A stretch of DNA of 47,024 nt from Parvularcula sp. (GTDB lineage: Bacteria > Pseudomonadota > Alphaproteobacteria > Caulobacterales > Parvularculaceae), in assembly GCA_002704915.1 (NCBI GenBank), contig PAIP01000046.1:1-47024 (forward strand), read 5' to 3'. Below are positions 3,380 through 7,209 of this stretch, one piece after another (within the stretch, counting starts at the first letter, position 1; every line of letters starts with the position of its first letter). Below the pieces are notes generated by a model. It searched no databases. It was not told the origin of the DNA and was given only the letters and a program-made list of their open reading frames with translations. The position numbers and the translations under genes are program-made.

Positions 3380-5284
3380 TCAGCCCTCCAGATAACCCTT
3401 GCTCTCAAGATACTCGACGATGCGGTTCGCCGCGACTTCTGCGGAGACTTCCGCCGTGTTGAGATCGATCTCGGCGTTCTCCGGCGCCTCGTAATCGCTG
3501 TCGATGCCGGTGAAGTTCTTGATCTCGCCCCGCCGCGCCCTTGCATAAAGGCCTTTAACGTCGCGTTGTTCGCAGACTTCCAGCGGCGTCGAAATATAGA
3601 CTTCGATGAATTCGCCGTCTTCCAGAAGCTCCCGGGCCATGCGCCGTTCCGACTGGAAGGGCGAGATGAAGGAGACGAGCACGATGAGGCCGGCGTCGGC
3701 CATGAGCCGCGCCGCTTCGCCAACGCGCCGGATGTTTTCGACCCGGTCGGCGTCGGTGAAGCCGAGATCCTTGTTGAGACCGTGACGCACATTATCGCCG
3801 TCAAGCGTGTAGGTATGGCGGCCCATATCGTGCAGCCGTTTTTCCACGAGATTTGCGACGGTCGATTTGCCCGATCCGGAAAGCCCTGTGAACCACAACA
3901 CGCAAGGCTTCTGGTGCTTGGCGCTGGAGCGTGCGTTCTTGTTAACGTCGAGATCCTGCCAGTGAACATTTTTCGCGCGGCGCAGGGAAAAGTCGATCAT
4001 GCCGGCGCCGATAGTGGCGTTGGTGCGCCGGTCGATCAGGATGAACGCACCTGTGCGGCGGTTGTCCTTGTAACAATCAAAGGCGATGGGCTGCGCCAGG
4101 TTGAAGTTACAGAAGCCCACTTCATTGAGCTCCAGGGTCTTGCCGGACATATGCTCCAGCGTGTTGACGTTGATCTTGTGCTTGAGCTCCGTCACCGTCG
4201 CTGGGATCATGCGGTTGGCGGTTTTCAGGAGATATTGGCGGCCCGGATAAAGCGCCTCTTCGTTCATCCAGAGGAGATGGGCGGCGAACTGGTCCGTCTG
4301 TTCTGCGGGCGCCTTGCCCGCGCAGATGACGTCGCCGCGCGAAATGTCGATCTCGTCTTCCAGCGTCAGCGTCACCGCCATGTCTGGATGCGCCTCTGTC
4401 AGCTCGCCGTCATGGGTGACAATTGATTTCACGATGGAGCGTTTGGCCGAGGGCAGGACGACGATTTCGTCGCCCGGGCGGATCGTCCCGCTCGCCACCG
4501 TGCCGGAAAAGCCCCGGAAATCGAGATTGGGCCGGTTCACCCACTGGACTGGCAGGCGGAAGGGTTTTTCCGCCAGCGCGCCGCGAACCTTGATGGTCTC
4601 GAGATAGGGCAACAGGGCCGAACCCTGATACCAGGGGGTTTCGCTGCTCTGCTTGGTGATGTTGACGCCTTCAAGCGCCGACATGGGGATGCAGGTGATC
4701 GTCTCAAAACCAAGATCTTTCGCAAAGACGCGATAGTCCGCTTCGATCTTGTCAAACGTGCTTTCGGAATAATCGACCAAGTCCATCTTGTTGATGGCGA
4801 CGACGATATGGCGAATGCCGAGCAGGGAGACGATATAGGAGTGACGCCGCGTTTGTGTCAGAACGCCCCGGCGCGCATCGACGAGAATGACGGCGACATC
4901 GGCGGTGGAGGCGCCGGTCGCCATATTGCGGGTGTATTGTTCGTGACCCGGCGTATCGGCGACGATGAATTTGCGTTTTTCCGTGGAGAAGAACCGATAG
5001 GCGACATCGATGGTGATGCCCTGTTCGCGCTCGGCGGCGAGACCGTCGACGAGGAGGGCGAAGTCGATTTTCTCGCCCTGCGTCCCGTGTTTTTTGGTGT
5101 CGCTTTCAAGCGCTGAAATCTGGTCATCATAGAGCAGTTTCGAATCGTAGAGCAAACGGCCGATCAGCGTTGACTTGCCGTCATCCACGCTGCCGCAGGT
5201 GATGAAGCGCAGCATGGATTTCTTTTCATGGGCGGCGAGATATTCAATGACGTCGTCGGAGGGTTTGAGGGTCGCGACTGACAT
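3380..5284 (-). CDS. cysNC: Bifunctional sulfate adenylyltransferase subunit 1 / adenylylsulfate kinase (CysNC)
   Basis: 634 residues. The first ~440 are CysN, an EF-Tu-like GTPase: GSVDDGKST Walker A at 31-39, [12 protein letters not shown] (G3), NKMDLVDY (G4), then two beta-barrel domains. From about residue 455 comes APS kinase (CysC), with P-loop GLSGSGKST near 467, [15 protein letters not shown] and the FISPFQSER loop. With CysD it uses GTP hydrolysis to drive ATP + sulfate to APS, and the CysC domain phosphorylates APS to PAPS. This fusion (also called NodQ type) is common in proteobacteria. Its ATG overlaps the cysD stop by one base (TAATG), so the subunits are translationally coupled. 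Confidence 0.97.
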
Positions 5285-6444
5285 TAGAAATACCCTTCCT
5301 GTTTCTTCTTCTCCATGGACGCCGCCTGGTCGTGGTCGATGACCCGTCCCTGGCGCTCCGATGTGGTCGCCAGAAGCATTTCCTGAATGATTTCGGGCAG
5401 TGTCGTCGCATTGGAGCGTACGGCGCCGGTCAGCGGATAACAGCCAAGCGTGCGGAAGCGCACCATTTCCTGTTTGGGCGTTGCGCCGTCGAGCGGCATG
5501 CGGTCATCGTCGACCATGATGAGCGCGCCGTCGCGCTCCACCACCGGTCGCTCAGCGGCGAAATAGAGCGGCACAATGGGAATGTTTTCGCGATAGATAT
5601 ATTGCCAGATATCGAGCTCGGTCCAGTTGGAGAGCGGGAAGACGCGGATCGATTCGCCTGTTGCGATGCGCGTATTATAAATGTTCCAAAGCTCCGGACG
5701 CTGATTTTTCGGGTCCCAGCGATGTTCGCGCGAGCGGAAGGAAAAGACGCGTTCCTTGGCGCGGGACTTTTCCTCATCCCGCCGGGCGCCGCCAAAGGCC
5801 GCGTCGAACTTGTATTTATCGAGCGCCTGTTTCAACGCCTGCGTCTTCATGATGTCAGTGTGAAGCTGCGAGCCATGGGTGAACGGGCCGACGCCCTGTT
5901 CGACGCCTTCGCGATTTATATGAACAATGAGATCGAGGCCGAGCTTCGCCGCGGTTTCATCGCGGAACTTGATCATCTCCCGGAACTTCCAGGTGGTGTC
6001 GATATGCATGACCGGGAAGGGCGGCGTTGAAGGATAAAACGCCTTCATGGCGAGATGCAGCATCACCGCGGAGTCTTTGCCCACGGAATAGAGCATCACC
6101 GGATTTTCAGCTTCCGCCGCAACCTCCCGCATGATGTGGATCGATTCCGCTTCGAGGCGGTCGAGATGAGTCATGGCGGATGGGGTGAGCGAGGGCGCCT
6201 CGTCATTGGCGGCCGGTATGGGGGAGGCGGGCGCCGTCCCGGCGGCTGAGAACTCTCCGGCTTCCAGTTCGGCCAGACGCGCCCGCGCCGTTTCCAGCGT
6301 CTTCAGCGTACATTGACCGCCGGCCTCGAGCCGGGCGATGGCTTTGCCGTCATTGAAGAGCTTGCGGCTCACCGTTGAAATGGAAAGGCCGCTTTTGTCT
6401 GAAGCGGCCTTGGCGCGGGTGATGAGGCTATCGATCTCTGACAT
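5284..6444 (-). CDS. cysD: Sulfate adenylyltransferase subunit 2 (CysD) with N-terminal HTH-like extension
   Basis: 386 residues from the ATG at 6444; normal CysD has about 300. Residues 91-386 are canonical Cys[21 protein letters not shown]-loop SVGKDS at 120-125, [15 protein letters not shown], and [13 protein letters not shown]. Residues 1-63 form an extra helical unit ([19 protein letters not shown], then [12 protein letters not shown] and [16 protein letters not shown]) resembling small XRE-like DNA-binding proteins of alphaproteobacteria, followed by a Pro/Ala linker (64-90). No ribosome binding site precedes Met91 and the frame is open throughout, so this is a true fusion in the sequence. 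A GTG at 6477 could extend it by 11 residues, but that would put an operator-like palindrome inside the coding region; I prefer the ATG. Operon with cysNC. Confidence 0.9.
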
Positions 6445-6445
6445 T

Positions 6446-6459
6446 TGGGATATATCCCA
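6446..6459. promoter_or_regulatory. Operator-like palindrome TGGGA-N4-TCCCA, cysD-proximal
   Basis: TGGGATATATCCCA is a perfect 14-base palindrome ending one base from the preferred cysD ATG. The same architecture, TGGGA-N4-TCCCA, recurs at 6561-6574, centre to centre 115 bases away, in the same divergent intergenic region. A bound protein here would cover the cysD translation start. Candidate binders are the HTH-like domain of CysD itself or the divergent GbsR/MarR-type regulator. Confidence 0.55.
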
Positions 6460-6465
6460 CGATTT

Positions 6466-6478
6466 TGTGTTGAACACA
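6466..6478. promoter_or_regulatory. Second palindrome upstream of cysD (TGTGTT-N-AACACA)
   Basis: TGTGTTGAACACA has perfect 6-base arms around one base, 6 bases beyond the TGGGA-type palindrome. It overlaps the alternative GTG start at 6477. It has no obvious second copy in the intergenic region, so its meaning as a binding site is uncertain. Confidence 0.35.
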
Positions 6479-6560
6479 CGCTAATAAAATCAGAGTTGCG
6501 TGGGATGCGCAAGGCATAGAGCATTTTTACCGTATAACACATCTAGGGGAGGTCTATTTG

Positions 6561-6574
6561 TGGGATAATTCCCA
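6561..6574. promoter_or_regulatory. Operator-like palindrome TGGGA-N4-TCCCA, gbsR-proximal
   Basis: TGGGATAATTCCCA has the same arms and spacing as the site at 6446-6459. It lies 47 bases before the GbsR/MarR-type gene. An isolated TGGGAT half-site sits between the two, at 6501, inside a TTGCG-N7-CGCAA inverted repeat (6496-6512). Two matching sites flanking a divergent promoter region suggest that one regulator controls both directions. Confidence 0.55.
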
Positions 6575-6621: not shown

Positions 6622-7209
6622 ATGACAGAAATAACTGAAAATAGTATCAAGCTGAGCCCGGCCATTCGCCGCTTCATTCTCCACTGGGGGGATATGGGCG
6701 GACAGTGGGGCGTCAACCGTTCGGTCGCGCAGATTCATGCGTTGCTGCTGGTCAGCGACCGGCCGTTGAATGCCGAGGAGATCGCCGAGACGCTGAGCAT
6801 TGCGCGCTCCAATGTGTCGAACTCGGTGAAAGAACTTCTGACCTGGAGCCTGATCAAGCGCGCGCCCGTCGCCGGCGACCGCCGCGATCACTTCGAAGCG
6901 GAAAGCGACATGTGGGAGATGGTTTCGCGCATTGTCGCCATGCGCAAGGCACGCGAGCTCGACCCTGCGGCGCAAGTCCTCGACGCATGCCTCACCGAGG
7001 CGAAAGAAGATCCGAATGCAACAGGCGCGGCTGTGCAGCGGCTCAGCGATCTGCAGGAGCTAATCGCGCTCCTGAACGGATGGTACGAGCAGATGAACAA
7101 GGTTCCGAAGTCGCGCATCGCGCCGCTGTTGAAGCTCGGCGCGCGCGCCGTCGATTTGCTGACGCCGTTTACGAAGAAGGAAAAGCCCGGAAACAAGACG
7201 ACGCATTAA
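6622..7209 (+). CDS. GbsR/MarR family transcriptional regulator
   Basis: 195 residues. A winged-helix DNA-binding domain spans about 15-95, with the recognition-helix region LNAEEIAETLSIARSNVSNS followed by the wing (APVAGDRRDHFEAE). The pattern HWGDMGGQWGVNRSVAQIH near the start is typical of GbsR-like regulators. The C-terminal half is helical and probably dimerises or senses a ligand. The gene is divergent from cysD and shares the palindromic intergenic region, so it may control sulfate activation, itself, or both; the ligand is unknown. ATG is preceded by an AT-rich stretch without a clear Shine-Dalgarno sequence, so a very short leader is possible. Confidence 0.88.
   Translation: MTEITENSIKLSPAIRRFILHWGDMGGQWGVNRSVAQIHALLLVSDRPLNAEEIAETLSIARSNVSNSVKELLTWSLIKRAPVAGDRRDHFEAESDMWEMVSRIVAMRKARELDPAAQVLDACLTEAKEDPNATGAAVQRLSDLQELIALLNGWYEQMNKVPKSRIAPLLKLGARAVDLLTPFTKKEKPGNKTTH

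Follow-up and report, generated by a model that had tools for sequence, protein, structure and literature searches.

What is a DNA-binding domain doing on an enzyme of sulfate assimilation, and which DNA does it read? The question is posed by the 47,024-nucleotide contig PAIP01000046.1 of Parvularcula sp. (assembly GCA_002704915.1), the whole of which we refer to as the window. Here cysD, the gene for subunit 2 of sulfate adenylyltransferase (ATP sulfurylase), encodes a protein that begins with a helix-turn-helix (HTH) domain. The fusion, its conservation, a palindromic operator at its gene and the link between operator and fusion are all shown by the sequences. Very probably, HTH-CysD is a trigger enzyme, a subunit of ATP sulfurylase that is at the same time a DNA-binding regulator and represses its own cysD-cysNC operon. 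The parts of the gene and its upstream region that carry this argument are as follows.

5284..6174, minus strand: CysD catalytic part (sulfate adenylyltransferase subunit 2), residues 91–386 with the stop codon, defined by NF009214, TIGR02039, invariant residues and the solved chain 1zun_A
6175..6261, minus strand: Pro/Ala-rich linker, residues 62–90, variable in length among relatives and of low model confidence
6262..6444, minus strand: HTH domain, residues 1–61, four predicted helices, lambda-repressor/Cro-like (AlphaFold2, profile A3, PHROG 7669)
6446..6459, palindrome, no strand assigned: proximal operator TGGGATATATCCCA, an exact TGGGAN4TCCCA palindrome ending one base before the cysD ATG
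6500..6505, minus strand: extra half-site TCCCAC between the two operators, from the half-site count in 62 loci
6561..6574, palindrome, no strand assigned: distal operator, read as TGGGATAATTCCCA on the plus strand, an exact palindrome 115 bp from the proximal one

The cysD open reading frame (ORF) encodes 386 residues on the minus strand, from the ATG at 6444 to a stop codon ending at 5284, with no stop in between; its longest form would start with GTG at 6477, but the alignment of relatives begins at the ATG instead. NCBIfam CysD models match the protein from residue 78, 89 or 94 onward with scores far above their cut-offs (547 bits for NF009214, whose cut-off is 413; TIGR02039 also exceeds its own), and 1zun_A aligns from residue 90. 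Some 90 N-terminal residues are therefore extra, as a reading of the DNA made from the sequence only had proposed. The PP-loop and the other CysD motif residues are invariant across 18 sequences, and cysN, in the form of cysNC, lies adjacent, so that both score and neighbour identify the gene as sulfate adenylyltransferase subunit 2. Judged from its sequence, the catalytic part is a complete enzyme domain with its catalytic residues kept. By score it is a full member of the same family as unfused CysD (TIGR02039, 1zun_A), from which the fused protein differs by its HTH and linker.

AlphaFold2 places helices at residues 3–18, 22–30, 35–40 and 47–61, whether the N-terminus is modelled alone or as part of the whole chain, with predicted confidence (pLDDT) block means of 83–92 for residues 1–60 and values below 50 for residues 65–86 of the full-length model. 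Structure prediction for residues 1–90, which the sequence-only reading had set as a check on its proposal of an XRE-type unit, thus returned an HTH-like arrangement of four helices. The proposal stands as far as the predicted fold is concerned and is less secure at the level of family: fold comparison gave moderate scores, with HipB, 434 repressor, P22 c2, SinR and C.Esp1396I among the rows but also eukaryotic CUT and POU domains, and no XRE profile reached its cut-off. Curated HTH profiles did not recognise the domain. Residues 1–91 match no Pfam or NCBIfam family above cut-off, and the only curated HTH match of the window's domain is a sub-cut-off one to the LacI HTH (E=0.093–0.17). Across 34 members of the domain, the LacI HTH matches 11 (best 3.3e-4) and HTH_3 matches two (best 0.006). 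There is a sequence relationship to PHROG 7669, a phage family without an assigned function, which the window's domain matches at E=5.8e-6 and 33 of the 34 members match, the best at 2.1e-9. In predicted fold class the domain resembles phage-type Cro/C1 repressors; the phage proteins are free-standing, whereas in the window a metabolic enzyme carries the domain. According to the models, then, a DNA-binding-type domain with a four-helix HTH-like fold sits in the same chain as CysD.

The sequence-only reading had taken the fusion as real and suggested looking for it in related genomes. When the 91 N-terminal residues were searched against 299 genomes of the order (E<=0.01), 76 genomes matched, and in 61 of them, our own included, the HTH is in one open frame with CysD. 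The remaining 15 comprise an NAD+ synthase (NadE) fusion (G222), a prophage-like stand-alone protein (G289) and 13 weak matches. CysD itself is present in 279 of the 299 genomes (E<=1e-60), so most CysD proteins of the order are unfused. At the level of the class, a profile of the 34 domains matched 17 of 385 genomes at E<=0.001; six of these, again counting our own, are CysD fusions, and the other five of the six come from families f95 and f127. An uninterrupted frame that recurs in 61 genomes of the order and five of f95/f127 bears the fusion out. Nonsynonymous divergence (dN) of the HTH domain, 0.04–0.17, was well below synonymous divergence (dS), 0.37 to saturated, in all 13 pairs compared, and on these rates the domain is under purifying selection. 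Most of the comparisons below use 62 fused loci, namely those of the 61 order genomes plus the metagenome-assembled genome (MAG) L036; L033, L034 and L035 were omitted as lying on the same contigs as L124, L129 and L137. Translation from Met91, an outcome that the sequence-only reading had named as speaking against a fused protein, is not supported as the general start: Met is missing at the start of the catalytic part in 13 of the 62 fused proteins, nine of which have a linker without any ATG, GTG or TTG codon.

In a CysD tree (179 pieces of up to 128 residues, arbitrary midpoint root), 65 fused tips fall into eight pure clades with supports of 0.17–0.95, a pattern compatible with a single origin of the fusion as well as with several. 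Fused L031 and L124 and unfused L037 and L061 lack the anchor motif and were left out of the tree. L037, listed as matching from residue 27, was rejected as a fusion.

The DNA upstream of cysD is where the domain would meet its target. Palindromes of this kind are not rare by chance: scanning the window with two mismatches allowed gave three sites where 1.5 were expected, so position and comparison have to carry the weight. Among the 62 fused loci, 54 have a proximal site that departs from TGGGAN4TCCCA by one mismatch at most (33 exact), 39 a distal one (16 exact) and 58 at least one of the two, and an exact palindrome stands in either zone in 41; in mononucleotide shuffles, the mean was 0.22 loci of 62 with a site and the maximum two. 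In most loci, some two dozen bases or fewer separate the end of the proximal operator from the start codon as assigned. By contrast, none of 40 unfused cysD loci, hand-picked from the CysD match list (13 from our own family, one of them from our own genus, and one from f5), carries the palindrome within 500 bp, even with one mismatch allowed. The f95/f127 fused loci, which were not used for motif finding, all carry the proximal palindrome (5/5, four exact and one with a single mismatch); they also have a distal site between −219 and −225 when up to two mismatches are tolerated, 124–128 bp from the proximal palindrome. Of the newly fetched f5 fused loci, 15 of 15 likewise carry a site with one mismatch or none; these loci are a selection from the f5 matches made up of 13 loci plus L237 and L254, the last two added after the anchoring protein pattern was loosened. 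The strict AT-centred form TGGGAWWWWTCCCA has 16 occurrences in 28 whole genomes; 14 stand immediately before a fused cysD, and none falls in the 12 unfused genomes. The logo of the operator extends to roughly ATCGTGGGAWWWWTCCCACGAT. Extra TCCCAC or GTGGGA half-sites outside the operators, counted from −260 to −60 relative to the SRK codon, are found in 32 of the 62 loci (shuffles: mean 3.4, largest 7), some between the operators and some beyond them. Taken together, the comparisons support a tie between the palindrome and the HTH-CysD fusion. They also favour the suggestion of the sequence-only reading that the enzyme may control its own operon, for which 6446–6574 had been named as the region to examine: it proves to be bounded by two exact palindromes of the kind found at fused genes and at none of the 40 unfused ones.

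A few sites lie elsewhere. The third TGGGAN4TCCCA site of our own genome (G000:C1:52362-52375, L151) is inside a NUDIX hydrolase-like ORF beside a cysE-like ORF, both assigned by eye, and as a further target it is probably a chance occurrence. The same probably holds for the two off-target TGGGAWWWWTCCCA sites, in G108 near pilus-like ORFs and in G098 inside a LacI-like ORF (by eye).

In the window's family, 37 two-site loci (up to two mismatches) have spacings of 72–118 bp between the operators that cluster near whole helical turns. A period of 10.4–10.5 bp gives the highest Rayleigh statistic (R=0.72, n=37), and for the 17 distinct spacings R is 0.62 with P about 0.002, a spacing P value that ignores kinship. 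Linker length and operator spacing are correlated (Spearman 0.58, n=35), which family membership explains equally well.

From these features we infer binding, repression, looping and control by a ligand, in the following manner. The N-terminal Cro/C1-like HTH, as a dimer, would recognise TGGGAN4TCCCA, and dimers at the operator that overlaps the translation start region of cysD would block expression of cysD-cysNC. In the window's family, where a second operator lies 72–118 bp upstream and mostly near whole turns, two dimers joined through CysD or CysDN contacts would probably shut off transcription by looping the DNA or by assembling cooperatively. The outcome would be negative autoregulation, helped by the distal site where there is one, with the enzyme part reporting the state of sulfate activation. 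Our first guess is that enzyme bound to its product, adenosine 5′-phosphosulfate (APS), would bind DNA best, by analogy to BirA with biotinyl-AMP; a second is that the binder would be the enzyme left over when CysN is short.

Several observations weigh against the simplest form of this model. Across all families (at most one mismatch), the phasing is weaker, with R=0.48 at 10.5 bp (n=35) and continuing to climb at 11.5, an effect of genus g19, whose spacings are 56, 58 and 67 bp. Nine f5 loci carry a single site, so looping cannot be general. Five of 16 fused genomes lack an exact AT-centred TGGGAWWWWTCCCA, and in a sixth (G098) it occurs off target only. Nor is there a simple co-change of HTH and operator everywhere, as three f5 proteins (L140, L143 and L144) lack the GGQ motif of the HTH and yet keep the palindrome.

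The fused loci without a palindrome are four in number (L132, L134, L137 and L139) and all belong to one genus, g2, six other sampled CysD genomes of which show no fusion. Their HTH reads GG, then G or R, plus MT, where most others have GGQ. The upstream regions, otherwise little alike, have two direct copies of TTCCCACG at −148/−149 and −116 from the SRK codon in four of four cases. Since these copies fit the logo, it seems from the sequences that in g2 the half-site was kept while the layout of the operator changed.

On either side of the cysD gene and its operators lie the following neighbours.

3380..5284, minus strand: cysNC (CysN fused to APS kinase), directly downstream of cysD and presumably in the same operon (ORF and family models)
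6622..7209, plus strand: divergent MarR/GbsR-like gene, rejected as the operator's partner

The second of these suggests another way to read the palindromes: some other factor, such as the GbsR-like protein, would bind them, and the HTH on CysD would be a coincidence. In the window, as in many loci of our own genus, the gene adjoins the operators, and two facing operators would suit a divergent gene pair. It does not, however, follow the operator. A GbsR-like match is absent upstream of every f5 locus (roughly 1–2.6 kb examined), and the gene was not found at the palindrome loci L010, L011, L024, L025, L028 and L032 of our own family. At E<=1e-20, GbsR is missing from seven of 11 fused genomes tested, all seven of which have the operator at cysD, and two of 10 unfused genomes (G069 and G079) have GbsR with no TGGGAWWWWTCCCA anywhere. 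The palindrome tracks the fusion instead, and we consider a role for such an outside factor very unlikely. Because the GbsR-like gene does not track the operator and our own genome has no second copy of the HTH domain at E<=0.01, the HTH of CysD is the simplest candidate for the binder. The absence of a second copy also bears on the idea that the HTH, though real, is a structural or interaction module and that an unknown co-occurring factor binds the palindromes. In its favour, folds of the XRE type are able to mediate contacts between proteins, the domain stays below the cut-off of every Pfam HTH family, and the f5 proteins with a changed GGQ motif retain the palindrome. On the other hand, the domain is under purifying selection, the operator accompanies the fusion and is absent from all unfused loci and genomes examined, and in g2 both the HTH and the operator layout differ. 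We judge this idea improbable.

The palindrome might also work at the level of messenger RNA, by folding into a hairpin across the start codon. Its position right against the ATG would allow such a fold to hide the initiation site, and terminator-like hairpins score at the proximal palindrome. Pairing would be expected to leave compensated changes, which only sites with up to two mismatches can reveal, as the set with at most one mismatch could not show them. Among 106 such sites, a single change is seen in 44 and two changes in 13; in just one of the 13 do both changes fall in one pair, where they are non-complementary, so no compensated pair exists. It is thus the letters rather than the pairing that are conserved, favouring DNA over RNA. 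Moreover, in the eight loci that lack a proximal site (at most one mismatch), no alternative perfect inverted repeat of 5 bp around a 4-base loop takes its place, and a second copy at a distance of 56–118 bp, with phasing in one family, fits a DNA site. A hairpin is accordingly disfavoured, and we give it hardly any chance. The direction of control is a separate matter. HTH-CysD could bind its sites and activate, or act as a local scaffold, since the direction cannot be read from sequence and distal sites can serve activation. A proximal operator near the start codon is, as a matter of general knowledge, more typical of repressors or roadblocks, and we think activation or scaffolding unlikely.

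As a putative autorepressor, HTH-CysD can be set beside known enzymes that double as regulators. BirA, the biotin protein ligase and bio operon repressor, has an adenylate as co-repressor and controls biotin genes through a winged HTH; here, CysD carries a Cro-like HTH, and no site other than that at its own operon was found to recur. PutA, the proline dehydrogenase and put repressor, is similar in being an enzyme with a DNA-binding domain, but this is a ribbon-helix-helix domain and the enzyme is catabolic. PutA is listed as a single-target regulator (PMC8249747, PMC6978683), and ATP sulfurylase is not among the five trigger enzymes of E. coli K-12 named in one such account, BirA, NadR, PepA, PutA and PyrH (PMC8249747). 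Among the literature matches listed (titles and abstract starts, with few subscription papers covered), there was no report of an HTH on CysD or of this operator.

If the model is correct, a sulfate-assimilation enzyme reads its own gene directly in several alphaproteobacterial families and possibly replaces a separate sulfur regulator at that operon. With one protein and one or two 14-bp sites, the system is compact enough for enzyme state, DNA looping and gene control to be tested together, and nature supplies the variants: unfused genomes, a genus with changed HTH and operator layout, and short as well as long linkers. The case also suggests that curated domain libraries may miss enzyme–repressor fusions, as a small HTH falls below their cut-offs.

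Tentatively, the scheme may extend beyond CysD. A phage-repressor-like HTH may have been recruited in Alphaproteobacteria onto CysD (many genomes) and onto NadE and AMP nucleosidase (a single genome each), giving single-target self-repressors with APS or another adenylate as signal, and an IS630-transposase-like domain would have been independently joined to CysD of Beta- and Gammaproteobacteria; CysD would then be an enzyme repeatedly turned into a regulator.

The same kind of HTH is present on a glutamine-dependent NAD+ synthase (L142:995-3310), which the NadE model matches from residue 91; a palindrome, AGGGATTTGTCCCT, lies about 35 bp before its ATG. Sought in 137 genomes of its family, this fusion was found in G222 only. 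A related HTH is N-terminal to AMP nucleosidase at L206:1299-2960, where NF006142 matches residues 73–551. At L200, L201, L202, L204 and L208, a related HTH precedes a conserved ORF that is methyltransferase-like by eye; of the five, the one tested (L200) matches no Pfam or NCBIfam family. At L101:1446-2585, the CysD of an alphaproteobacterial MAG begins with another kind of short HTH-like segment followed by a Ser/Ala linker, again by eye.

Of 72 database CysD loci, seven (L044, L051, L063, L064, L068, L069 and L082) have related in-frame extensions of CysD. These proteins of Beta- and Gammaproteobacteria are extended at the N-terminus by roughly 300 residues. The one tested, L051:1478-3397, matches an IS630 transposase model with E=1.2e-16 and 61 bits, below the cut-off of 100, and the extension is apparently an independent fusion.

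As for where the HTH domain came from, it has no match in plasmid or phage records, and neither it nor the protein of L145 gave a tblastn match in 50,697 phage records. The latter, at L145:2447-2704, is a free-standing 85-residue relative of the HTH domain in a prophage-like setting, divergent, by eye, from an XRE/S24-type repressor gene, as with Cro. A stand-alone protein of this type is a possible source of such domains.
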